From positions 1 through 25,476 of IMG/VR virus record IMGVR_UViG_3300032046_000198: DNA of 25,476 bases, one strand, 5' to 3'. This document shows, piece after piece, positions 2,157 through 15,317 of this stretch. A program made the position numbers and the translations under genes. Source of the DNA: a virus. The notes under the pieces were generated by a model. The model was given only the letters and a program-made list of their open reading frames with translations. It did no database searches and was not told where the DNA came from. Numbering within the stretch: position 1 is the stretch's first letter; every line of letters starts with the position of its first letter.

Positions 2157-5100
2157 ATGGCAACTAATAGTAAAGTTTTTGTTTCTCCTGGTGTTTATAC
2201 CTCAGAGGTTGATTTAAGTTTTGTAGCTCAAAGTGTTGGAGTTACTACTTTGGGAATTGTAGGCGAAACACTAATAGGACCGGCTTTTGAACCAATATTC
2301 ATCACAAGTTTTGATGAGTATCAAACTGTGTTCGGTGGAACATCACCAGAAAAATATATAAACACACAAATTCCAAAATATGAAGCGTCTTATATTGCTA
2401 AGGCGTACTTACAACAATCTAACCAATTGTTTGTTACAAGAATTCTTGGATTATCGGGTTATGACGCAGGACCATCTTGGTCTGTAGCAACAGTTGCGAA
2501 TGTTGATGTAAATACTGTGGGTATCTACTGTCTTAGTGGTACTCAAAGTGTTAACACTTGTGACTTTATTTGTGTAGACCCAAAAGAGATCGAATTCTTT
2601 GTTGATTTCTCAGGATGTTCAAATGATACCGCAACTATCGCATATAATAATGATTTTCCTGATGAGATACAGGCAATACTTTATAACCAATACGAACAAT
2701 ACAACGGAAGTACATCAACATTAGATGAACAAATTAAAGATTTAATTTTTAGCGTAATTAGTGCTGACTCACCAACTACCGCAGAAGATGAAGTAATTTC
2801 TTACTTTGGTTCTATCCCAACGGTTGATTATGACGCACTTTCAGGATATAGTGCATCAACAAATGTATTCGAAGTTCCTTCTGTTTCATTAAACGATACT
2901 GATTTGACTTCAGCACTTAACGATTCGTGGTATTACGCTTTATTTGAAAATACGGGTAATTATCAGTACTCAGGATATTCCTTCTACGCAAATGTAACTG
3001 GATTAACTCAGATTATTATTACCTCAACAACAACTAGTACCTCAACAACGACTACTACAACTAGTCCTTGTCCTACACCAATACCAACAACTACAACAAC
3101 GACTACAGTACAACCTGTAAATTGTTACAACGGTACTATATATGGTAAATTATATTACTATACAGGTACATCTTATAGTGATTACGATAATGTTGTGGTA
3201 GGTACATTAAGATCAAGAGGTGTTGCAACTTACACAAACGCAACTAACCCAGTATACTCTGTAACTGGAATAACTAATGTGTCTTTAAACATGGCAGGTC
3301 AATATTCGGGAGTACTTAAAAATCCTTATTTGACCTTTGGTGTAAATGTAACAGATAAGTTTGGGACAAATTATAGTTTTGAAACATCTTTTTCTCAAAA
3401 CGATCCCGAATATTGGTCAAAAGTATTTGGTATTACTAACTTCCAAAAACCAAGAATAGAAGTTCCTGTTTTTGCTGAGGAGAACTTCCAATCGTGGTTG
3501 AACTATTCATGGAAAAAAGGTTATATCAGAGGATTAAACCCTGACTTAATTTCATTAGACTCTGCACAATCAGGGGATTTTGATTCAATTGGTTGGTATT
3601 TAGATAGATGGCAAACACCAAACTCTCCTTTTGTTGTGTCAGAATTAAGAGGTAATAAAGTATATGATTTATTTAGATTCTATACAATTTCTGATGGTGA
3701 TGCGGCAAATACATTACTAAAGATTTCAATTATTAACCAATCTTGGTCAAATCTAACATTTGATATTTTAATTAGAGATTATTTCGATACAGATGCAAAT
3801 CCTGTAGTACTTGAGAAGTTTACTAACTGTACAATGGATCCAGGACAAAATAGTTTTGTTGGAAATAAAGTTGGTACATTAGATGGTGAATACATGTTGA
3901 ATTCAAAATATGTAATGGTTGAAATGTCTGAAGATGCGCCAATAGACGCTCTTCCTTGTGGATTTAACGGATTTAACTTCCGTCTTTATTCAGGAGCACA
4001 ATCACCATTCCCAATTATTAAAGGTAAATATGATTTCCCTGGTGAAACTGTATGGAACCCACCTTTTGCACTTTCTTCAGGAGCGGTTAATTCAACATTA
4101 AGTCAAGGTGATAATGTAAGAAGAACTTATTTAGGTATATCTAACAGTTACGGATGGGATCCTGCATACTTCGAATATGTTGGTAAGACGGAACCAAATA
4201 GTACTTGTGATATTGATTCAGTTCCGTGGAACTATATATCAGCAGGTTTCCACATGGATGCAAATGCAAGTGCATTAACAATAAACGATTTATATTCAAC
4301 ATCTGGAGATACAAGATTTATTTGTGGTAATTCACCATTCATTACAGAACCAGAATTACCAACAAATGTGTACTTTAGGTTGTTTGCTCGTAAATTCACA
4401 TTCTTAGTACAAGGTGGGTTTGACGGATGGGATATCTATAGAGAATGGAGAACCAATGAAGACAGATTCCAAATTGGTAGATCAGGATTCCTTAACGGAG
4501 CTTGTCCAACATCAAGGTATCCAAATGCAGTTGGTTGGGGAGCGTTCAAAGAGATTTCTATTGGTGATGGTACCATGGACTTTGGAAACACAGACTACTA
4601 CGCATACTTATTAGGTCAACAAACATTTGCAAATCCTGAAGCAACAAACATTAATGTATTTGTAAGTCCAGGTATTGATTATGTTAATAATAGTAATCTT
4701 GTTGAAGACGCAATTACTATGATAGAGTTCAATAGGGCTGACTCACTTTATGTTTGTACAACCCCTGATGTTGATTTGTTTAGTCCTACATTAACAGGTG
4801 GTCAAGATATATTTATATATCCAACTGAAACGGTTGATAACTTATTTAACACAGGAATTGACTCTAACTATACGGCAACTTACTACCCTTGGGTATTAAC
4901 AAGAGATAGTGTAAACAATACTCAAATCTATATCCCACCAACAGCTGAGGTAACAAGAAATTTAGCGTTAACAGATAACATCGCATTCCCTTGGTTCGCA
5001 GCGGCGGGTTACACTCGTGGTATTGTTAACTGTATTAAAGCTCGTAAGAAGTTAACTCAAGAAGATAGAGACATTCTTTACAACGGTAGAGTTAACCCAA

Positions 5101-5483
5101 TCGCAACCTTCTCTGATGTTGGTACTGTAATTTGGGGTAACAAAACTCTACAAGTAAGGGAATCGGCTCTTGATAGAATCAATGTGAGAAGATTGTTATT
5201 ACAAGCTCGTAAATTGATTTCAGCCGTATCTGTAAGGTTATTGTTTGAACAAAACGACGCACAAGTAAGACAAGACTTCTTAAACGCTGTTAACCCAATA
5301 TTAGACTCAATAAGAAGAGACCGTGGTTTGTATGACTTCCGAGTAACAGTTTCATCAAATCCTGAGGATTTAGATAGAAACCAAATGACAGGTAAGATCT
5401 ATATTAAACCCACAAGATCTCTTGAATTTATAGACATAACATTCTACATCACTCCAACAGGAGCATCGTTTGAGAATATTTAA
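2157..5483 (+). CDS. tail sheath protein, gp18-like, enlarged
   Basis: 1108 residues, against 659 in T4 gp18. The sheath surrounds the tail tube and contracts on infection. The N-terminus (FVSPGVYTSEVDLSF, then a SFDEYQTVFGG segment and a TRILG strand) and the C-terminal region (ARKKLTQEDRDILYNGRVNP, then ALDRINVRRLLLQARKLI, with a DFRV strand and an IYIKPTRSLEFIDITF ending) are typical of sheath proteins, where they form the conserved inner, interlocking domain. The middle is greatly expanded with surface-type domains and includes a threonine-rich linker at residues 289-317. The leader is 36 nt of mostly A, with no Shine-Dalgarno sequence. A terminator follows 21 nt after the stop. Confidence 0.92.
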   Translation: MATNSKVFVSPGVYTSEVDLSFVAQSVGVTTLGIVGETLIGPAFEPIFITSFDEYQTVFGGTSPEKYINTQIPKYEASYIAKAYLQQSNQLFVTRILGLSGYDAGPSWSVATVANVDVNTVGIYCLSGTQSVNTCDFICVDPKEIEFFVDFSGCSNDTATIAYNNDFPDEIQAILYNQYEQYNGSTSTLDEQIKDLIFSVISADSPTTAEDEVISYFGSIPTVDYDALSGYSASTNVFEVPSVSLNDTDLTSALNDSWYYALFENTGNYQYSGYSFYANVTGLTQIIITSTTTSTSTTTTTTSPCPTPIPTTTTTTTVQPVNCYNGTIYGKLYYYTGTSYSDYDNVVVGTLRSRGVATYTNATNPVYSVTGITNVSLNMAGQYSGVLKNPYLTFGVNVTDKFGTNYSFETSFSQNDPEYWSKVFGITNFQKPRIEVPVFAEENFQSWLNYSWKKGYIRGLNPDLISLDSAQSGDFDSIGWYLDRWQTPNSPFVVSELRGNKVYDLFRFYTISDGDAANTLLKISIINQSWSNLTFDILIRDYFDTDANPVVLEKFTNCTMDPGQNSFVGNKVGTLDGEYMLNSKYVMVEMSEDAPIDALPCGFNGFNFRLYSGAQSPFPIIKGKYDFPGETVWNPPFALSSGAVNSTLSQGDNVRRTYLGISNSYGWDPAYFEYVGKTEPNSTCDIDSVPWNYISAGFHMDANASALTINDLYSTSGDTRFICGNSPFITEPELPTNVYFRLFARKFTFLVQGGFDGWDIYREWRTNEDRFQIGRSGFLNGACPTSRYPNAVGWGAFKEISIGDGTMDFGNTDYYAYLLGQQTFANPEATNINVFVSPGIDYVNNSNLVEDAITMIEFNRADSLYVCTTPDVDLFSPTLTGGQDIFIYPTETVDNLFNTGIDSNYTATYYPWVLTRDSVNNTQIYIPPTAEVTRNLALTDNIAFPWFAAAGYTRGIVNCIKARKKLTQEDRDILYNGRVNPIATFSDVGTVIWGNKTLQVRESALDRINVRRLLLQARKLISAVSVRLLFEQNDAQVRQDFLNAVNPILDSIRRDRGLYDFRVTVSSNPEDLDRNQMTGKIYIKPTRSLEFIDITFYITPTGASFENI
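3021..3107 (+). repeat. low-complexity threonine-rich linker coding repeat in the sheath gene
   Basis: ACA/ACT codons alternate through 29 codons (residues 289-317 of the sheath protein). They give two Thr/Ser runs, TSTTTSTSTTTTTTS and TTTTTTT, separated by a proline-rich PCPTPIP. This looks like a flexible, extended, possibly O-glycosylated spacer between two domains of the exposed sheath insertion. Confidence 0.85.
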
Positions 5484-5530: not shown

Positions 5531-5537
5531 ATTTATA
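5530..5537 (+). promoter_or_regulatory. putative phage promoter box before the HAD gene
   Basis: TATTTATA fused to the end of the upstream terminator T-run. It ends 14 nt before the ATG at 5552, the spacing seen at other units. A second near copy, TATTTATT, lies at 5541-5548 but would be too close to the start. Confidence 0.45.
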
Positions 5538-5551
5538 TGATATTTATTAGT

Positions 5552-6379
5552 ATGCGTTATAAAAAAGTTGTTAAAGAAATAATTTCTGAAATTATACAAG
5601 ATCAGTTAACACCAACAATGAAATATTATGCTTTTGATTGGGATGATAATCTTATGTATATGCCAACTAAAATTTATTTAAAAGATAAAGACGGTAATAG
5701 TGTTGGCATGTCAACAGAAGATTTTGCCGAATATAGGTCTGAAGTTGGAAAAGAACCTTTCGAATATGAAGGACATACAATAGTTGATTTTGATGATGAA
5801 CCATTTAGAAATTTTAGAGTTACAGGTGATAAACAATTTTTAAATGATGCAATGAAAGCCCCAACAGGTCCTGCGTGGGACGACTTTGTGGAGGCGGTTA
5901 ATAACGGGTCTATTTTTGCAATAGTTACTGCAAGAGGTCACACACCAAGTGTTTTAAAAAATGCCACTTATAATTTAATTAAAAAAAACAAACATGGTTT
6001 AAATCAACAAGAGTTGGTTAAAAATTTAAGAAAGTATAGAGATATTACAGATGAGGAGGATATGACTGATGACGAACTTATAAAGACTTATTTAGAAATG
6101 TGTAAATGGCATCCTGTTAGTTTTGGGGAAGGTTCGGCTGCGAATCCAGAAGAACTTAAAGTAAGTGCCATGAAACAATTTATGGAATATGTTAGAACTT
6201 TATCACAAAAACTTCAAGAAAAGGCATATATTAAAAACAAAATTAGTAATTATTTTACACCATATATTGGTTTTTCAGATGATGACCTAAAGAATGTTCA
6301 ATCAATGAAGAAACATTTTGATAATGAAAGTGGATTAGATATTTATCATACAGGAGGAGGAAAAAAAACTAAATTTTAA
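5552..6379 (+). CDS. HAD-superfamily hydrolase-like protein in the tail module
   Basis: 275 residues from the ATG at 5552. An in-frame ATG at 5537 is disfavoured because it lies on the promoter box. The haloacid dehalogenase fold signature is present: motif I AFDWDDN (D29 and D31), motif II IVTARGH (T126), and a C-terminal GFSDDD (240-245) fitting motif IV acidic residues. A lysine for motif III could lie in the LKVSAMKQ segment. This suggests a phosphatase or nucleotidase-type activity using an Asp nucleophile; the substrate cannot be told. Residues 1-20 are a lysine-rich helix ahead of the fold. It sits between sheath and tube genes, with its own box and without a strong terminator, and has no counterpart at this place in T4. 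Confidence 0.75.
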   Translation: MRYKKVVKEIISEIIQDQLTPTMKYYAFDWDDNLMYMPTKIYLKDKDGNSVGMSTEDFAEYRSEVGKEPFEYEGHTIVDFDDEPFRNFRVTGDKQFLNDAMKAPTGPAWDDFVEAVNNGSIFAIVTARGHTPSVLKNATYNLIKKNKHGLNQQELVKNLRKYRDITDEEDMTDDELIKTYLEMCKWHPVSFGEGSAANPEELKVSAMKQFMEYVRTLSQKLQEKAYIKNKISNYFTPYIGFSDDDLKNVQSMKKHFDNESGLDIYHTGGGKKTKF

Positions 6380-6498: not shown

Positions 6499-6987
6499 AT
6501 GGCTGATTTATTAATGAAAATGCCGATCCCTTACGAACCGAAAAGGGAGAACAGGTGGATTTTGAGGTTTCCATCATCACTTGGTATTAATGAGTGGTAT
6601 GTTGAGACGACATCAAGACCAAAACTTACAATTGCCGCAACTGAAATTCAGTTCTTAAATACTTCAACATATGTTGCAGGTAGATTTAACTGGGGTGAAT
6701 TACCCGTTACTTTCCGTGACCCAATCGGACCTTCTGCGTCTCAAGCGGTTATGGAATGGATTCGTCTATGTGCTGAGTCAGTTACAGGTCGTATGGGTTA
6801 CGCAGCAGGTTACAAAAAAAATGTTGACCTTGAGATGTTGGACCCAACAGGAGTTGTTGTTGAGAAATGGATTTTAGAAGGAACTTTCTTAACAGGATAT
6901 GATGGGGGTTCCTTAACATATTCCACAGATGGTCTCGCTAAGATTACTTGCAACATGAGAATGGACCGTTGTATATTAGTTTATTGA
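6499..6987 (+). CDS. tail tube protein, gp19-like
   Basis: 162 residues, almost exactly the length of T4 gp19 (163). Hexameric rings of this protein stack to form the inner tube through which DNA passes. Visible marks are the N-terminal RENRWILRFPSSLGINEW stretch, a central ELPVTFRDPIGPSASQAVMEWI segment (about 67-88) and a C-terminal beta hairpin with TGYDGGSLTYSTDGLAKITC. The pattern is typical of T4-type tubes. The gene follows a long A-rich leader and is closed by a strong terminator, so it forms its own transcription unit, as expected for a very abundant protein. Confidence 0.9.
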   Translation: MADLLMKMPIPYEPKRENRWILRFPSSLGINEWYVETTSRPKLTIAATEIQFLNTSTYVAGRFNWGELPVTFRDPIGPSASQAVMEWIRLCAESVTGRMGYAAGYKKNVDLEMLDPTGVVVEKWILEGTFLTGYDGGSLTYSTDGLAKITCNMRMDRCILVY

Positions 6988-7029: not shown

Positions 7030-7066
7030 AAGACCTATTTACTTTACTAGTGATAGGTCTTTTTTA
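7030..7066 (+). terminator. rho-independent terminator after the tube gene
   Basis: AAGACCTAT (7030-7038) pairs perfectly with ATAGGTCTT (7053-7061) around a 14-nt loop and is followed by a run of T to 7065. An in-frame ATG at 7066 directly follows the T-run, which argues against it being the start of the next gene. Confidence 0.9.
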
Positions 7067-7092
7067 TGTTTATAAAAAAAGAACTTTATATT

Positions 7093-7863
7093 ATGGAACA
7101 AGACGCATATCAAGCTGGTCAAGCAGAATTTAATTTACCACACGATGTAATACAATTACCTAGTCAAGGTGTGTTTTACAAATCAAAAAAGAAATCGATA
7201 AAAGTTGGTTATTTAACCGCCGCTGACGAAAACATTATTGCAAATGTTGACTCAAGAAAGAGTATTCAAGAAAGTATTATTATTCCCCTTTTAAGAACTA
7301 AAGTTTATGAAAGAGATTTAAGACCTGAAGAAATGCTTGATGGCGATATTGAGGCAATTTTAATTTTTTTAAGAAACACTTCATTTGGTCCTGAGTATAC
7401 AATTAATGCTGTAGACCCTAAAACTGACGATAGATTTAAAACAACGATTGTTTTAGACGAATTAAATTACAAAAAAACAAAGTCTGCCCCTAATGAAGAT
7501 GGTTTATTTGAAACCACACTTCCTGTATCAGGAAAAAAAGTCCTATTAAAACTTCTTAGTTTAAAAGACAAACTTGATATTGAACAATTAATAAATTCTT
7601 ATCCTTCAGAAAGAACCGCACCAACTATCACCTCAAGACTTAACAAACACATTGTTTCAATTGAGGGAGATTCTGACAATTTAAAAATTGCAACATTTGT
7701 TGAAACTTTACCTATTGCGGACTCTAAATATATTAGAAGATTTATTTTAGATAATGAACCAAGATTAGACCTATCAAAAGAAGTTATCGCCCCGTCAGGA
7801 GAAAGAGTAATGGTCGACATTACTTTTGGGGTGGAATTTTTTCGGCCTTTCATATCAATATAA
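7093..7863 (+). CDS. tail assembly chaperone / baseplate hub protein, T4 gp26-like (zero-frame product)
   Basis: 256 residues from the ATG at 7093, chosen over 7066 because the latter abuts the terminator. The protein is soluble and charged: FNLPHDVIQLPSQGVFYKSKKKSIKVGYLTAADE at the N-terminus is the kind of opening seen in T4-like gp26 proteins, and it continues with helices such as LDIEQLINSYPSERT. Lying directly between the tube and the tape measure is the place of tail assembly chaperones in long-tailed phages. The zero frame ends only six codons after TTT TTT, with RPFISI. A second frame runs on through the gap for another 50 codons, which suggests a frameshifted long form of 300 residues. 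A weak box (TGTTTATA, 7067-7074) precedes it. Confidence 0.65.
   Translation: MEQDAYQAGQAEFNLPHDVIQLPSQGVFYKSKKKSIKVGYLTAADENIIANVDSRKSIQESIIIPLLRTKVYERDLRPEEMLDGDIEAILIFLRNTSFGPEYTINAVDPKTDDRFKTTIVLDELNYKKTKSAPNEDGLFETTLPVSGKKVLLKLLSLKDKLDIEQLINSYPSERTAPTITSRLNKHIVSIEGDSDNLKIATFVETLPIADSKYIRRFILDNEPRLDLSKEVIAPSGERVMVDITFGVEFFRPFISI
7837..7845 (+). promoter_or_regulatory. candidate programmed frameshift site TTT TTT CGG
   Basis: Six T followed by C sit in the zero frame as TTT TTT CGG. After the second TTT, a tRNA-Phe could slip forward one base to TTC, with GGC as the next codon, or slip back two bases within the T-run. Both enter the same open frame. CGG is uncommon in this A/T-rich coding (arginine is mostly AGA), so a slow A site may favour slipping. 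The site lies within the only stretch, 7811-7863, where both frames are open. Confidence 0.5.
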
Positions 7864-8021: not shown

Positions 8022-9890
8022 ATGGCAGGTGTAGATCCAATTTCATTAACCAAGAAGGATAAAGATGAGCTTATTGAGATGATCAATGCCCAAAAAACTG
8101 AAATCGATCAATTAAAAAAAGACAAGACCCGCGGCAAAACTGGATCGGATGAAACAGTTGATGGCACAAGTAGTATTGGAAATGCTTTTGATCCATTAAA
8201 ATTGGCGAATGTTAGTGGTCTGCTAGAGTCTATGAAAGAATCTATACTTGGGGTTGCAAATATTAAAGATTTCAGTACATTTAAAGAATTAGACGAACTA
8301 AGTAATACAATACAACAAAATTTTGGTTTAGCAAAAGGAAGAGTTAGTGAATTTAAAACTGCAATTGCCGACGCAGCTCCTGAGTTGGCAAAAATGGGGT
8401 ATACTCAACAGGAATCCGCCGATTTAATTGCCGACTCAATGGACGGGTTAAAAAGCTCAGCTCTGTTAAGTACCCAAACATTAATTGAAATGGGAGCGGT
8501 TTCAAAAGTCACAGGTTTAGATGTTAACGAGTTAGCTGAGGGGTTTAGAAGTGTCGGGATCTCAATGCAAAAGGTTGGTGAAGAAATGAAAGGGGTTACT
8601 GACTACGCAAGAAGTGTTGGAATGTCAGTTAAAACAATTTCAAAAGGAGTTGAACAAAATATTGAAAAAATCAATTTGTATAATTTTGACAATGGTGTTC
8701 AAGGTTTAGCTAAGATGGCGGCTACTTCAGAAAGATTCGGGCTTTCAATGACTAATACATTCAGAATTGCCGAAGAGTTATTTTCACCTGAAAACGCAAT
8801 TAATATGGCGGCAGGACTCCAAAGGCTGGGAGTTGCGTCAAGTGCATTATTAGACCCACTAAGAGCTATGGATTTAGCCCAAAACGACCCTGAAGCGTTA
8901 CAAAAAGAAATTGTTAACTTAAGTAAGGAATTTACAACATTCAATGAGAAAACAGGTAAAATGGAAATTCTACCTGGAGCTCAAAGAAGACTAAGAGAGG
9001 TTGCTAAAGAGTTGAACATAGACGCTTCTGAGTTTGCAAAAATGTCAATTCAGGCAGGAGACTTTGATAGAAAGTTAAAACAAATTAGAATGCCTTCATT
9101 GGCGGAAGGTGATGATGCAACCAAAGAATTAATAGCTTCTATGGCTCAACTTGATTCTAGTGGTGTTGCAACAATCCAAGTCAAGGATATGGAGACGGGT
9201 AATTTAATAGAGAAAAATGTTGAAGAATTAACGCCTGAAGATATTGAGAATTTAAAAAAGGCTAATGATGAATCTTCCATGAAGATAGAAGAGATTGCAG
9301 TTAAACAATTAGATGAAACAAAACAAACTAATAGTATTCTTACAAGTTCTGAATACGCTGGAAAATTCGCAAGGGCAACATCACCAACAATGGAAAAACT
9401 AACAAATTTTGTCTCCAATAGTTATAAGGATGTTGCAAGTAAATTTAGAGATGAGATTGGAACAACCCAAGGTTTAAGAAATAAGTTTGAAAGAGTTGCG
9501 GGACCTACAGAAGATTTATTTGTTGCTATGGCAGAACGTAAAGAGGAAAATGTAATAAAGGCAATGGCAGAGTTTACTAAGGGGGCGTCTGACATAAAAG
9601 ATAGTTTTTTAAGTGCATCTGAAAGTTTTGTTGCTAATGTAATTAACAGTAGAAAAGAAGATTTGAAAAAAACTTATAGTAGCGATTATAAACCGGTTAA
9701 TGAAACAAAAACTTTTAATGTTAATTGGAATATTACTGGTGATCCTAATGTAACTAAAAATATAAATCAAGAAACATTTGATAAAATGTTAAACACATCA
9801 ACAACCGACCCAAACATTAATGTAATGGTTAGCTCAAATTTAGACGGAGGTTCTGCTCCATCGGCAGCAACAGGTTCTAAAAATAAGTAG
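8022..9890 (+). CDS. tail tape measure protein, gp29-like
   Basis: 622 residues, close to T4 gp29 (590). Tape measure proteins fill the tube during assembly and set tail length. The sequence is mostly helical: a charged coiled-coil-like start (about residues 11-39), then long helix-forming stretches with alanine, glycine and small residues, a less polar segment around 240-290 (AAGLQRLGVASSALLDPL) and a Ser/Thr/Asn-rich tail. The pattern TGLDVNELAEGFRSVGISMQ (about 165-184) resembles phage tape measure repeats. Position supports this: it comes directly after the frameshift chaperone and before baseplate genes. By the usual rule of about 0.15 nm per residue, it predicts a tail near 90 nm. Confidence 0.8.
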   Translation: MAGVDPISLTKKDKDELIEMINAQKTEIDQLKKDKTRGKTGSDETVDGTSSIGNAFDPLKLANVSGLLESMKESILGVANIKDFSTFKELDELSNTIQQNFGLAKGRVSEFKTAIADAAPELAKMGYTQQESADLIADSMDGLKSSALLSTQTLIEMGAVSKVTGLDVNELAEGFRSVGISMQKVGEEMKGVTDYARSVGMSVKTISKGVEQNIEKINLYNFDNGVQGLAKMAATSERFGLSMTNTFRIAEELFSPENAINMAAGLQRLGVASSALLDPLRAMDLAQNDPEALQKEIVNLSKEFTTFNEKTGKMEILPGAQRRLREVAKELNIDASEFAKMSIQAGDFDRKLKQIRMPSLAEGDDATKELIASMAQLDSSGVATIQVKDMETGNLIEKNVEELTPEDIENLKKANDESSMKIEEIAVKQLDETKQTNSILTSSEYAGKFARATSPTMEKLTNFVSNSYKDVASKFRDEIGTTQGLRNKFERVAGPTEDLFVAMAERKEENVIKAMAEFTKGASDIKDSFLSASESFVANVINSRKEDLKKTYSSDYKPVNETKTFNVNWNITGDPNVTKNINQETFDKMLNTSTTDPNINVMVSSNLDGGSAPSAATGSKNK

Positions 9891-9942: not shown

Positions 9943-12900
9943 ATGGCCGAAAGTTTTTTATCGTTTGGTAATTCAGAAACATTCCGAAAACAGTTATTGG
10001 TAAGAAATTTATCACCATACAATGTGCCAGGAAGTTACAACTCACCTGGTAACCCAATTAATTATGAAACTAATCTAACCGTTAGTAATGTTACGGACTC
10101 ACCAAACAACTATGTCTCAACAAATTTATTTGCGTCTGATTTATATCCTTTAAATGAATTTGGACCCGAAGGCGGATTTGGAGTCCCTATTGGTGTAAAT
10201 TTAACACCTGTTTTAGAACCAAACCAAGGACCTTATTATCCTTTGACTTCTGGTCAAATGGAGGGACTACCATTAATCAACGAATTTTATATTGAGTCTG
10301 CATATGTAACAAACAAATGGGGACCTTCAGGTGGTTATAAAGATTTAGTTATAATTACCGATACTTTCCTAACAAACCCAATATATCAACCTTTTTGGAA
10401 TCCAGGGTATTATAACTATTCATCATATTCGTTATATAATGTTATTTTCCAAGACGACCCAATTGGTTCAAACGGGTCTTTATCTTCGGATAGTTACTTA
10501 GCAAAGATAGGAGCAACCCAACTTAAGTTTGCATTTGAAGAAAGGGTTGCACAAGAAATTAATCAGGCAACACTTGGTGTAATTAATTTAGACACCATAA
10601 CGGATCCATTTACCGCTAGCTTATTAGCCACAGGACAACAACCATTCTTTATAAGAGATTGGAGGATTACGGTACCTGAAAATCCATTAGCAAATGCCGT
10701 TAATTTAATAAACAGAATTACAGGTACATACTTTCCTGTATCATTTATACCGGGTGATTACTTTAATGAGAATTCGCCTTATGTAAATCCACAACAACAA
10801 AATGGTGCTTTAAATACCATTAATAATTTAACGGGTGGTTTATTATCTCCAATATTAAATAAAACTAGAAATCCATCAGAAATTTTTGTTGCAAATTCAG
10901 GTAATGGTACAAGATCAACATTATTTGCTGCGTTAAATTATAACCTATATCGGCCGTCTTATAACATTGGGTTAATACAAGGTCTTTCGGCATTGGCAAA
11001 CGCCTTTGTTGGGCAAGATAGTCCTGAGACTGGAACATATTATGTTGGTAGTCCAAATTCAGAACCAAGTTTAATTGATTCGCCAGCAAACCAAGTACCC
11101 GTTAATCAGTTTGGAGAACAACAAGCAACAATTGTTTATGGACCACAAGAACTTGGAATATTATATGAAGGCAATGAAAGTCAATTAAAATTTGGTCTTA
11201 AAGGTAAATCATATACTGACGGTGGTGGTATTACAGGGCAATTAGTTTGGACTTCACCAAAATACAAAGGTAACGCAGGTTTTAGAGCAACACAAGGTGG
11301 TGGGGCGGGAAGTCTTGATGACGACTTTAATCAAATATCTGCGGATTACTTACAATACCAATCTGTTGACATCCCATTCAAACCTGGATCAATTTTATAT
11401 AACACACAAAGATTAATTGAATCCGCAGATCAATTACAAGGTCAGGCTAGATTAAAACATGTTGGAACCGCAATTAATCAGGTCTCAAAAGTATTCAATG
11501 ATGGGTACAAAGAATTAACAAAAGGATCACAAGTTTTATCATATGTTAATCAGGCGGATGGAACACAAGCAGGATTAGAATACTGTAGAGTTTTCCAAAA
11601 AGACACCCCTTATTATACTTACGCTGACTTACAAAAATCTGACGGTATTACCAAAACAGGTCGTCAGTTTGATTATTCAGTGTTAGATAACACTTATAAC
11701 TTGAACATTGCTCCTTTAAGAAACCCTGGATCAACAAATATAGTTGACAATAAAGTAAAAAAATATATGTTCTCCCTTGAGAACTTAGCTTGGAGAACTT
11801 CAGATAGACCTGGATTTACTTACGATGAATTACCAACATGTGAGAAAGGGCCTAATGGAGGAAGAATTATGTGGTTCCCACCTTATAACTTAACATTCTC
11901 TGATGATTCACGACCTGAATTTAACCCAACAACATTCTTAGGTAGACCTGAACCAATATATACCTACAAAAACACCGCTAGAAGTGGACAATTAAGTTGG
12001 ACAATTATTGTTGATAATCCAGCCATGATGAATACAATCATTGAAAAACAAATGAAGGGAGCTAATAAAGATAGAGTACAAAGTATTATTGATTCGTTTT
12101 TTGCAGGTTGTATGAAGTATGATTTATATGAATTGGCGGCAAAGTTTAACACAATACCCTCTAAAGATTTATATACTTACCAACAAATTTTAAATAACCC
12201 ACGATTAACTTCCGAAGAACAAATACAAGTTTTACAAAGTATTCCTGTCAATAATGAAGGCGGTAATGTAGGTAAGGTTTCAAACGCCGACGATATCCCA
12301 AATTCTACCGCAAATGGAAATCAAGAAGCCCAAAACCCACAATTTGAAACTGTTGATTTGACATCAAAATATGAGGGATATGGTTTTTATTTCCATAATG
12401 ACATTCCAAAATCAAAGCTAACAACTGGTCCATATAATGATTATTATAATGCATACTTGGGTTTACAAAATGGTGTTTACACAACACAAGCACCACAAAA
12501 AGTTATATCAGGTACTGATGTATTTTTAGGATCAGGAGTTCAAAATTTCTTTAATGAAGTTGTTATTGGTAATTTTAATTTTATTTCAACAGAATTATTA
12601 AAACAGATAGAAGAGATTTTGGTAAATCAAAATGGTAAAATTGATATTGAAATGATAGGTTCGGCCTCAGCAGTTGCGGCAGTGTCGTATAATCAATCCC
12701 TCTCTGAAAGAAGAAATAATTCAGTACTCCAATGGTTTTTACAACAACCACTTTCAGGAGGTACAACAATTAAAAAATATTATGACGATAAAAAGTTTAA
12801 TCTTGTATTAAACCCTAATGGTGAAGAAATTGTAATTGCTAAAACAAGAGCAGAGGCGGCAGCTACGGAAACACCTACCGATGTAAGTGTTAATAATGCT

Positions 12901-14991
12901 CAAGGAGGAAATATTTTAACTTCGAGTGTTGATTGTAGAAATAATGTTAAAGATGCATTTTATAATCCACCTAAAGTGACCTCACAGGCCGAATGGTATA
13001 GTGTTCCTGCAATGGCATGTAGAAGGGTTGCCATAAATAAAATTGTTGCAACAGTACAAAAGAAACCTGAAGTACCCGTTATTCCACCACCTGTGGTAAT
13101 TGAAACAACTAGTAACAACCCACAAAATATTCTAACAGGGATTACTCAAAGTATCAAACCCGAACCTAAAATTACTATTGAACAAAAATTAAAAGAAGGA
13201 ATTTCTAAAAAAATATTAAGAAATTTATTTACGGAATGTGATTATTTTGAGGTTATTAAAGAAACCAATCCGATGATCTACGACACCATTAAAGATAGAG
13301 TTAAATTCTTTAGCCCATCATTCCACTCAATGACACCTGAAGGTTTAAATGCTAGATTAACATTTTTACATCAGTGTACAAGACCTGGACAAACAATTCC
13401 TATTATTGGACCTGACGGTAGACCAAAATATAACGACGCATTAAATACTTCATTTGGGGCACCACCGGTTTTAGTGTTAAGAATTGGTGACTTTTTCAAT
13501 ACTAAAATCATACCAACACAACTTGGTCTTACATTTGAAGGATTAGATTTAAACCCTGAAGGTATTGGAATACAACCAATGTTAGCAAAAGTAACATTGG
13601 GATTTAATATTATTGGAGGTATGGGACTTAAAGAACCTGTACAACAATTACAAAACGCACTTTCATTTAATTTTTATGCGAATACAGAAATTTATGACGA
13701 AAGAGCGACCGCAACTGAAGACACAAGTAAGTTAGACAAATATGTTGTAAATAAAATAACAGGAGGAGTTCCACCTGTTAGTCAGCAACAAGTCAATCAA
13801 ATTAATAGTGTACAACCACAAAAAGGTGGAGATACAGTTGGTACAGTGGTCGATGGGACTACTATGGACTACGCAGGGATATATACAGAGTTAGAAGGAA
13901 AATTACAAGAGTATTTTAAAGCCTATAGCGATATGTTGAGTAAAACAACATTGGATTATTCATATGGAGCAACTTTAATTGCTATGAAAAATAACAACTA
14001 TACTAAAGGTGAACTTTGTGGATACATAAATGAAGCGGTTGATACCGTTATTTACGGTAAGTCTAATGAGTATCAAAATTTTGTTGATGATTTATATGGT
14101 GAGGTAGTAAAAGACATTAATCAAGGAGATAACCCAATTTTATTTGCGGCAATAAATAGATCGGGCGGTATAACCGGAAAACAAAAAAGAGAATTAGAAG
14201 AAAAATTAAAAATACAAGTCTCTACAGGTAAAGGGGAGATATTAAACTCAATAACTAACAACACGACTAACATAGTTTCTGTAGAAAATGAATTGAACTA
14301 TATTTTTAGACGGTTAGATGTGGTATCATCAAAATTAGATGGAAGGTTACAAGGGACAAACGAACCATTATTATATGACTTAAGTGGTGATACATTCTTC
14401 AGTGTAAACGAAAATAGCGGATCTATTATAGATGTACTCACATTTAAAGTGAAAAATATTATTGAAAGTTTTAATGGTTTAATTTATGCTCGAGGATTTA
14501 CAGGTGATTACTTTAAGAAAAGTAACTCTACTATTGATAGTGGAAGTGGTTGTTCGTCTGTTGTTGTTGGGTTAAACCAATCTTTCTTTGTTGATTGTCC
14601 TACTAATAGATATTATAGTCTTATGTCGCCATTCTTCTTAACTGAAAATAAATACCAAACAATGGTTAATGAGTTGACAAGCGGTAATGAAGTTAAAGGT
14701 GATACTAATTTGGTTGATCTTATTAAAAGTACATGTGAAAATTTAAAAAACACACAATTCGCACCTTTTAAAACTTATTGGGAGGGAGAATTGAAAAAGT
14801 TAGTTGACGACCCAATTTATATACAAGCCTCAACTTGGAAGATACCAGATAACACAGTAAAAACTTGTGGTTACAAAACTCCGGCTGAAGGCAACTTAAA
14901 CACAAAAACTAAAAGAATTAAAGACTTATATTCAAAAAATAACTTGAATGAACAAAAATCAACATTCAACGGGAAAGTAACATTTAATTAA
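9943..14991 (+). CDS. giant baseplate protein with an OmpA-like domain and tube-initiator-like segments
   Basis: 1682 residues. I read it as a multidomain baseplate component. The N-terminal third is rich in N, P, Y and G. A middle segment with FSLENLAWRTSDRPG and IMWFPPYNLTFSD and a later one with PPVLVLRIGDFFNTKIIPT and GIQPMLAKVTLGFNIIGG look like baseplate or tube-initiator (gp48/gp54-type) building blocks; this is an impression, not an alignment. Around residues 855-970 lies an OmpA-like fold: IDIEMIG, then YNQSLSERRNNSVLQWF (916 onward), matching the family YNQ.LSERR..SV signature. The usual Asp after the glycine is replaced by Ser, while the Arg of LSERR is kept. The next start lies two bases after the stop, so the gene is cotranscribed with the gp53-like and hub genes. 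Confidence 0.7.
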   Translation: MAESFLSFGNSETFRKQLLVRNLSPYNVPGSYNSPGNPINYETNLTVSNVTDSPNNYVSTNLFASDLYPLNEFGPEGGFGVPIGVNLTPVLEPNQGPYYPLTSGQMEGLPLINEFYIESAYVTNKWGPSGGYKDLVIITDTFLTNPIYQPFWNPGYYNYSSYSLYNVIFQDDPIGSNGSLSSDSYLAKIGATQLKFAFEERVAQEINQATLGVINLDTITDPFTASLLATGQQPFFIRDWRITVPENPLANAVNLINRITGTYFPVSFIPGDYFNENSPYVNPQQQNGALNTINNLTGGLLSPILNKTRNPSEIFVANSGNGTRSTLFAALNYNLYRPSYNIGLIQGLSALANAFVGQDSPETGTYYVGSPNSEPSLIDSPANQVPVNQFGEQQATIVYGPQELGILYEGNESQLKFGLKGKSYTDGGGITGQLVWTSPKYKGNAGFRATQGGGAGSLDDDFNQISADYLQYQSVDIPFKPGSILYNTQRLIESADQLQGQARLKHVGTAINQVSKVFNDGYKELTKGSQVLSYVNQADGTQAGLEYCRVFQKDTPYYTYADLQKSDGITKTGRQFDYSVLDNTYNLNIAPLRNPGSTNIVDNKVKKYMFSLENLAWRTSDRPGFTYDELPTCEKGPNGGRIMWFPPYNLTFSDDSRPEFNPTTFLGRPEPIYTYKNTARSGQLSWTIIVDNPAMMNTIIEKQMKGANKDRVQSIIDSFFAGCMKYDLYELAAKFNTIPSKDLYTYQQILNNPRLTSEEQIQVLQSIPVNNEGGNVGKVSNADDIPNSTANGNQEAQNPQFETVDLTSKYEGYGFYFHNDIPKSKLTTGPYNDYYNAYLGLQNGVYTTQAPQKVISGTDVFLGSGVQNFFNEVVIGNFNFISTELLKQIEEILVNQNGKIDIEMIGSASAVAAVSYNQSLSERRNNSVLQWFLQQPLSGGTTIKKYYDDKKFNLVLNPNGEEIVIAKTRAEAAATETPTDVSVNNAQGGNILTSSVDCRNNVKDAFYNPPKVTSQAEWYSVPAMACRRVAINKIVATVQKKPEVPVIPPPVVIETTSNNPQNILTGITQSIKPEPKITIEQKLKEGISKKILRNLFTECDYFEVIKETNPMIYDTIKDRVKFFSPSFHSMTPEGLNARLTFLHQCTRPGQTIPIIGPDGRPKYNDALNTSFGAPPVLVLRIGDFFNTKIIPTQLGLTFEGLDLNPEGIGIQPMLAKVTLGFNIIGGMGLKEPVQQLQNALSFNFYANTEIYDERATATEDTSKLDKYVVNKITGGVPPVSQQQVNQINSVQPQKGGDTVGTVVDGTTMDYAGIYTELEGKLQEYFKAYSDMLSKTTLDYSYGATLIAMKNNNYTKGELCGYINEAVDTVIYGKSNEYQNFVDDLYGEVVKDINQGDNPILFAAINRSGGITGKQKRELEEKLKIQVSTGKGEILNSITNNTTNIVSVENELNYIFRRLDVVSSKLDGRLQGTNEPLLYDLSGDTFFSVNENSGSIIDVLTFKVKNIIESFNGLIYARGFTGDYFKKSNSTIDSGSGCSSVVVGLNQSFFVDCPTNRYYSLMSPFFLTENKYQTMVNELTSGNEVKGDTNLVDLIKSTCENLKNTQFAPFKTYWEGELKKLVDDPIYIQASTWKIPDNTVKTCGYKTPAEGNLNTKTKRIKDLYSKNNLNEQKSTFNGKVTFN

Positions 14992-14993
14992 TT

Positions 14994-15317
14994 ATGGCAT
15001 ATCAATATTGGAATAGGTATTCGGATTTTTTGCTCAATGGTGAACAAACTGTTGTACCGTATGTGCAATTACCCTCAAAATCATCTGATAAAAATTACAT
15101 CTATATTGTTGGACAATCTAGATTGGATAAAGTATCGCAACTTTATTATAACACACCATACTTTGGGTGGTTAATACAAGCGGCAAACCCCCAATATTCA
15201 GGAGATGAATACTCAATCCCTGATGGAGCAGTTTTAACAATTCCATTTCCTTTGGTTGCTTCACTACAAGACTATAAAAATACATACGAAAACTATTTCT
15301 TCTATTATGGTAGGTGA
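14994..15317 (+). CDS. baseplate wedge protein, gp53-like with LysM-type fold
   Basis: 107 residues. After a YWNRYSDFLLNG opening comes a LysM-like motif: YIVGQSRLDKVSQLYYNTPYFGWLIQAANPQ, then GDEYSIPDGAVLTIP (about residues 40-85). In T4, gp53 (196 residues) carries such a domain and joins the wedges round the baseplate hub; the present protein is close to the LysM part alone. It begins two bases after the preceding stop, and the next gene starts inside its last codons, so the three genes are translationally linked. A host-wall-binding role for the LysM fold is less likely than a structural one. Confidence 0.75.
   Translation: MAYQYWNRYSDFLLNGEQTVVPYVQLPSKSSDKNYIYIVGQSRLDKVSQLYYNTPYFGWLIQAANPQYSGDEYSIPDGAVLTIPFPLVASLQDYKNTYENYFFYYGR

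Follow-up and report, generated by a model that had tools for sequence, protein, structure and literature searches.

A divergent OmpA/PorE-type domain inserted in a probable tail-tube initiator of uncultured T4-like phages

The window analysed here, a 25,476-base stretch of DNA from an IMG/VR record, carries its tail genes in a T4-like order (Table 1) and also encodes a 2365-aa tail protein. At 1108 aa, the sheath protein is very large; its long variable N-terminal part contains a run rich in Thr, and known sheaths were matched solely by its C-terminal part. Between the sheath and tube genes lies a 280-aa ORF (5537-6379) in which we noticed by eye a HAD-phosphatase-like FDWDDNL motif; a comparison of this ORF with PHROGs gave no match. 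The protein considered below is encoded by a 1682-aa ORF that stands between the tape-measure-like and gp53-like genes, and is syntenic with gp035 (716 aa) of Flavobacterium phage immuto. This phage is the nearest isolate by recombinase and among the nearest by sheath, and its genes run in the order sheath, tube, hub, tape measure, gp035, a small gene in the gp53 position, and a large hub-like gene.

Table 1. Tail genes of the window and features of the 1682-aa protein (residue numbers are those of this protein).
Feature	Positions	Strand	Basis
Sheath	2157-5483		profile match
Tube	6499-6987		profile match
Baseplate-hub-type protein	7066-7863		profile match
Tape-measure-like 622-aa ORF	8022-9890		position
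1682-aa ORF (P0001), probable tail-tube initiator / baseplate central protein with OmpA-like insert	9943..14991	+	open frame, homologues, synteny
Tube-like domain, N-terminal half, residues 600-745, highly conserved	11740..12177	+	predicted long strands, immuto gp035 match
OmpA/PorE-type domain, full extent, residues 801-1038	12343..13056	+	extended HMM, AF2, Foldseek
First strand YF[DEH]ND.P, residues 813-822	12379..12408	+	conservation; cellular counterpart F[HRK]ND
G906-S-A-S909, equivalent of GHTD; S909 at the DAP-binding Asp position	12658..12669	+	Ser 77/78, Asp 0/78
Y916 N917 ... R923 R924, pocket side (PorE Tyr583, Asn584, Arg591)	12688..12714	+	75/78, 77/78, 78/78, 78/78
G960-E961, equivalent of OmpA GYGE	12820..12825	+	78/78 and 77/78
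Stretch bounded by invariant Cys998 and Cys1026, not in cellular motif	12934..13020	+	100% conserved
Last strand VPAMACRRV, residues 1021-1029, equivalent of OmpA NRRVEI	13003..13029	+	conservation; cellular counterpart YSxxAAxERKIEIQ
Tube-like domain, C-terminal half, residues 1130-1262	13330..13728	+	71% median identity (residues 1076-1262), joint alignment
gp53-like small baseplate wedge subunit	14994..15317	+	phrog_7145 E 1.5e-5; LysM-like sequence by eye

Homologues of the 1682-aa protein were gathered in three scans of viral contigs using family members, with up to 80 loci from each scan. These proteins measured 1600-1743 aa and had the same architecture as the window protein, and conservation was counted over 78 non-redundant homologues (<90% identity). 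When the window protein and one distant homologue were compared by tblastn with a set of 50,697 phage records, nothing matched, and no relative was encoded in the bacterial genomes scanned with patterns from the core. The phages that bear the domain are uncultured and T4-like, and form a large and broad group.

The conserved core of the window protein (coreN HMM) was matched by immuto gp035 with E 2.3e-4, and when both core halves were compared jointly with gp035 (hhalign/hmmsearch) the resulting E of 6e-4 was better than that of either half alone. The OmpA-like domain itself is absent from immuto gp035, from immuto-like contigs, from Microcystis phage Mel-JY01 and from LR756508. In the predicted model, long strands flank the insert on both sides, at low pLDDT, and a Foldseek search with the flanking model returned baseplate chains of ~225 residues from several eCIS, with weak scores (E 0.13-0.4). 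We take these chains to be of the Afp7/Pvc7 class. PHROGs gave no match for the 1682-aa ORF or for its tube-like halves, and phmmer with the tube-like domain of the Microcystis phage found nothing in the PDB. Taken together, sequence and model make it likely that the 1682-aa protein is a tail-tube initiator (T4 gp48/gp54, Afp7-like), and the insert probably interrupts the tube-like beta fold of this initiator. The earlier note had assigned the domain to a giant baseplate protein; that this is a central baseplate protein agrees with the synteny and with the weak fold evidence. Seven cysteines of this protein (548, 633, 723, 998, 1026, 1099 and 1145) never change among the 77-78 non-redundant homologues, unlike its other cysteines, which vary; the invariant set recalls the disulfide-locked baseplate of phage Milano (PMC10811340) or metal sites.

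When the whole window protein was searched with PF00691, residues 884-940 matched with E 0.015 and 16.1 bits (cut-off 27.2 bits), and in a six-frame scan the match reached E 7.8e-6. PF00691 was matched singly by 30 of 36 homologous domains, and one homologue passed the curated cut-off (29.6 bits). The profile of these 36 homologues, run against all PDB sequences, retrieved OmpA/Pal/YfiB chains and little else, with a best E of 1.1e-5. An AlphaFold2 model of the domain, made with the 36 homologues, had a pLDDT of 87.9, and the leading Foldseek matches of this model were nearly all OmpA-family, with the C-terminal domain of PorE first. Each of these matches was weak by itself (E at least 0.013, none below E 0.001), probably because of insertions in the domain. 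The single-sequence Pfam score under the curated cut-off and the lack of a Foldseek match below E 0.001 would fit a chance or motif-only resemblance to OmpA, a reading that is contradicted by the profile, fold, homologue and tree results and that we regard as extremely improbable. Since the homologue, PDB-profile and fold results agree, the PF00691 match is more than chance, and profiles and model together identify the insert as a genuine divergent OmpA/Pal-fold domain. The OmpA signature reported by the earlier note is thus upheld at its place, as is the fold by structure prediction; the profile search that it had proposed did find its match, but for the window protein alone this match stayed sub-threshold.

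For modelling, the domain bounds were first set at 825-1072, which left out the first strand. We now place the domain at about residues 801-1038, because the corresponding region of the cellular relatives described below opens with LYFHNDxP and closes with YSxxAAxERKIEIQ; the phage counterparts of these motifs are FYFHNDIP and YSVPAMACRRVAI. The AlphaFold2 pLDDT was about 90 over most of this span. The span of residues 863-970 given by the earlier note was therefore right in location and too short in extent, as it excluded the YFxNDxP strand at the start and the AMACRRVxI strand at the end. The domain was present in all 130 distinct homologues that cover the region, and its first strand is strongly conserved (Y816 77/78, F817 78/78, N819 77/78, P822 78/78). 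The median pairwise identity of the domain was 36%, versus 68-71% for the flanking core (68% for residues 471-745 and 71% for residues 1076-1262). Cys998 and Cys1026 may be a disulfide or metal pair.

In PorE, the DAP of the stem peptide is bound by Asp576, Asn584 and Arg591 through their side chains, with Phe541, Tyr583 and Ile587 alongside, and the DAP amine contacts both Asp OD1 and main-chain amides (PMC7192894). The phage domain has the same spacing as PorE (Asp576=S909, Tyr583=Y916, Asn584=N917, Ile587=L920, Arg591=R924), and we regard F817 as the counterpart of Phe541. The S909 position was Ser in 77 of the 78 homologues and Asp in none, the sole exception being locus L213 (Phe). This locus is a natural variant with a degenerate motif (GSNF, YN lost) in which RR and ACR are kept. 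The other tested pocket residues (Phe, Tyr, Asn, Arg) were conserved at 96-100%, with F817 and Arg924 present in all 78. Conservation of at least 95% was seen in 21 of 238 columns, and 5 of the 6 pocket positions are among these (p 1.9e-5), a value that cannot tell ligand binding from fold constraint because the pocket residues also form the family motif.

In the canonical OmpA domains that we sampled, the DAP-binding position was Asp in 29 of 30. Among the residues expected of the superfamily, the phage domain thus has the Arg and the Asn and lacks the DAP-binding Asp. As Asp is common and not universal in the superfamily (GYASPEG type), its absence bears more on canonical DAP binding than on fold membership. 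Moreover, Ser is fixed across the whole subfamily, including cellular PorE-like proteins, so that it is by itself no argument for a loss of function in the phages. By these counts the missing Asp is explained, being ordinary within a Ser-type subfamily. Both the retained Arg and the Ser in place of the Asp after the glycine had been read correctly in the earlier note, which went astray in taking the lack of Asp to be peculiar to this one protein: it is a fixed trait of the subfamily, with Ser in 30 of 30 cellular relatives.

OmpA domains with Ser for Asp of the GYASPEG type are common in Bacteroidota (pattern scan; loci L249-L328). These domains were rejected as the source of the Ser, since they score no better than canonical ones and fall outside the phage clade. 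When the phage profile was run against genomes of the order to which a Crocinitomicaceae genome belongs, it retrieved proteins of 635-770 aa (best 82 bits), and 199 of 249 genomes had some match at E <= 0.001. With the extended phage-domain HMM, the median score was 87 bits for the cellular PorE-like domains (top 110), 20 for the GYASPEG type and 19 for canonical GHTD domains. Ser, Tyr, Asn and Arg-Arg were each found in 30 of 30 members of the cellular family. A maximum-likelihood tree joined the phage and cellular domains in one clade (support 100/98), inside which they are sister groups, the phage group (93/79) and the cellular group (100/91) each being single. A loss of Asp in the phages after acquisition was rejected, as the cellular sister family also has Ser. 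In a phylum-wide sample the cellular family occurred in 5 of 118 genomes at E <= 1e-8, and is thus restricted in distribution.

The cellular proteins consist of TPR, PD40 and the OmpA-like domain, with DUF1573 in the member scanned, and their N-terminal parts match the NCBIfam PorE and CHU_0125 models, far below the cut-off. The two cellular loci examined are PorE/CHU_0125-like gene clusters with a gene for a type-B CTD T9SS cargo protein and PorP/SprF. In Porphyromonas gingivalis, PorP is bound by PorE and itself binds a type-B CTD protein, and PorE has been proposed as a bridge to peptidoglycan (PMC9143113); PorE-like proteins of Bacteroidota are thought to tie the secretion machinery to the cell wall. 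In the phage protein neither TPR nor PD40 was matched: the domain sits in a tail gene and is the sole part shared. Judged by profile scores and tree, the closest relatives of the phage domain are the OmpA-like domains of TPR-PD40 PorE/CHU_0125-like proteins from a Flavobacteriales-type order, and the closest cellular protein is probably PorE-like and located in the periplasm. Transfer from cell to phage would be the simpler direction, because the cellular copy occupies the place of PorE's canonical OmpA domain, and the tree alone does not prove this direction. We consider the identity of the domain together with its Bacteroidota-type origin very likely. The phages probably infect a Flavobacteriales-type order, to judge by the kinship of the domain and by their nearest isolate, a Flavobacterium phage.

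As the best overall explanation, to which we assign a probability of roughly 0.5, we propose a PorE-type domain in the tube initiator that would engage a wall ligand after contraction. In the virion, the domain would be packed between the tube initiator and the wedge, with six copies ringing the tube tip. Upon contraction, the tube initiator would depart from the baseplate with the tube and the domain would reach the periplasm, where its putative carboxylate-binding pocket (F817, S909, Y916, N917, R924) would engage either the stem peptide of peptidoglycan or a binding partner of the host's PorE-like protein; the engaged domain would then steady the tube tip while DNA enters. Contraction in phage Milano requires the baseplate central protein to come away from the baseplate (PMC10811340), and a Milano-like exit of the central protein would carry the six copies to the envelope. 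That the phages took a T9SS-anchoring PorE-like wall domain from their host, and that the ring grips peptidoglycan or the PorP/PorE assembly after contraction, guiding or stabilising the injection channel, is a more tentative suggestion.

For the pocket itself, residue conservation and the PorE analogy put retained ligand binding at a little under an even chance. The loss of the Asp that contacts the DAP amine counts against it; the Ser need not abolish binding, because in PorE this amine also contacts main-chain amides. It is quite possible that the domain is purely structural, a clamp between the tube-initiator ring and the wedge, gp53 or sheath initiator that binds no wall component, like baseplate LysM. 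The LysM fold, which binds peptidoglycan elsewhere, is built permanently into Mu gp43, Milano gp25, A-1(L) gp16 and T4 gp53 (PMC11915804, PMC10811340, PMC10966104), and in the window a gp53-like gene lies directly downstream of the 1682-aa ORF. Retention of the domain in every homologue that covers the region, together with the loss of Asp and the gain of two invariant Cys, would also suit a clamp, and since the pocket residues overlap the fold-defining motif, their conservation may be structural. A clamp fits less well with pocket positions, five of six, that stay at 96-100% despite the divergence of the domain, or with related phages that build a baseplate without the domain. The earlier note had named a cell-wall anchor and a structural module as the two candidate functions, and sequence does not decide between these. 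Between ligand binding and a structural role we remain undecided; we hold them to be about equally likely, with ligand binding slightly ahead. A different carboxylate ligand, either a protein C-terminus or a periplasmic partner of a PorE-like protein, would account for the Ser, as there would be no amine to recognise, and the retained Arg and Asn, the change from Asp to Ser in phage and cellular families alike and the cellular genes adjoining PorP/SprF are all compatible with it; this support is indirect, and we think such a ligand improbable.

An open-access literature search found no earlier description of a baseplate or tube initiator with an OmpA-type domain. The wall-binding folds known from phage baseplates are mainly LysM, and the OmpA-type insert in a probable tube initiator extends this kind. 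With its nearest relative in a secretion-anchoring family, this insert ties phage entry to the Bacteroidota envelope, and the analysis exposes a bacterial Ser-type OmpA subfamily. Whether the domain is an anchor or a scaffold is directly testable using one purified domain.

Two further phage OmpA-like proteins were observed. At locus L238 (G004:C1:228950-229249), in a 272-kb phage record that also carries the baseplate copy, a separate 286-aa ORF matches PF00691 and has GSSS at the GHTD position. Maribacter phage Colly_1 gp017 (L243) is annotated as OmpA family, has a signal-peptide-like start and adjoins a tail fibre gene; where GHTD would stand it has FASA, again without Asp.

Among known systems, the LysM domains of Mu gp43, Milano gp25, A-1(L) gp16 and T4 gp53 likewise place a peptidoglycan-binding fold in the central baseplate, but that fold is unrelated, and LysM is terminal or a separate protein whereas the phage OmpA domain interrupts a tube-like fold. 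The T6SS accessory protein TagL resembles the phage protein in having an OmpA-type domain tied to a contractile machine; it differs in belonging to the membrane-bound anchoring complex and not to the tail, and its DAP pocket is conserved (PMC8253398). The cellular TPR-PD40-OmpA-like proteins share the YFxNDxP, GxAS, YN, RR and final-strand motifs and the Ser with the phage domain, but they carry N-terminal TPR and PD40 and lie beside PorP/SprF, while in the phages the domain is inserted into a tail protein. The best fold match is the C-terminal OmpA_C-like domain of PorE from the P. gingivalis T9SS (6TOP), in which the pocket spacing of Asp/Ser, Tyr, Asn and Arg is the same. PorE has Asp and binds the DAP stem peptide, whereas the phage domain has Ser, and PorE is a periplasmic lipoprotein whereas the phage domain is part of a predicted tail protein. 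Relative to PorE, the first helix region of the phage domain is extended; further differences are Cys1026 and a long insert that contains Cys998.
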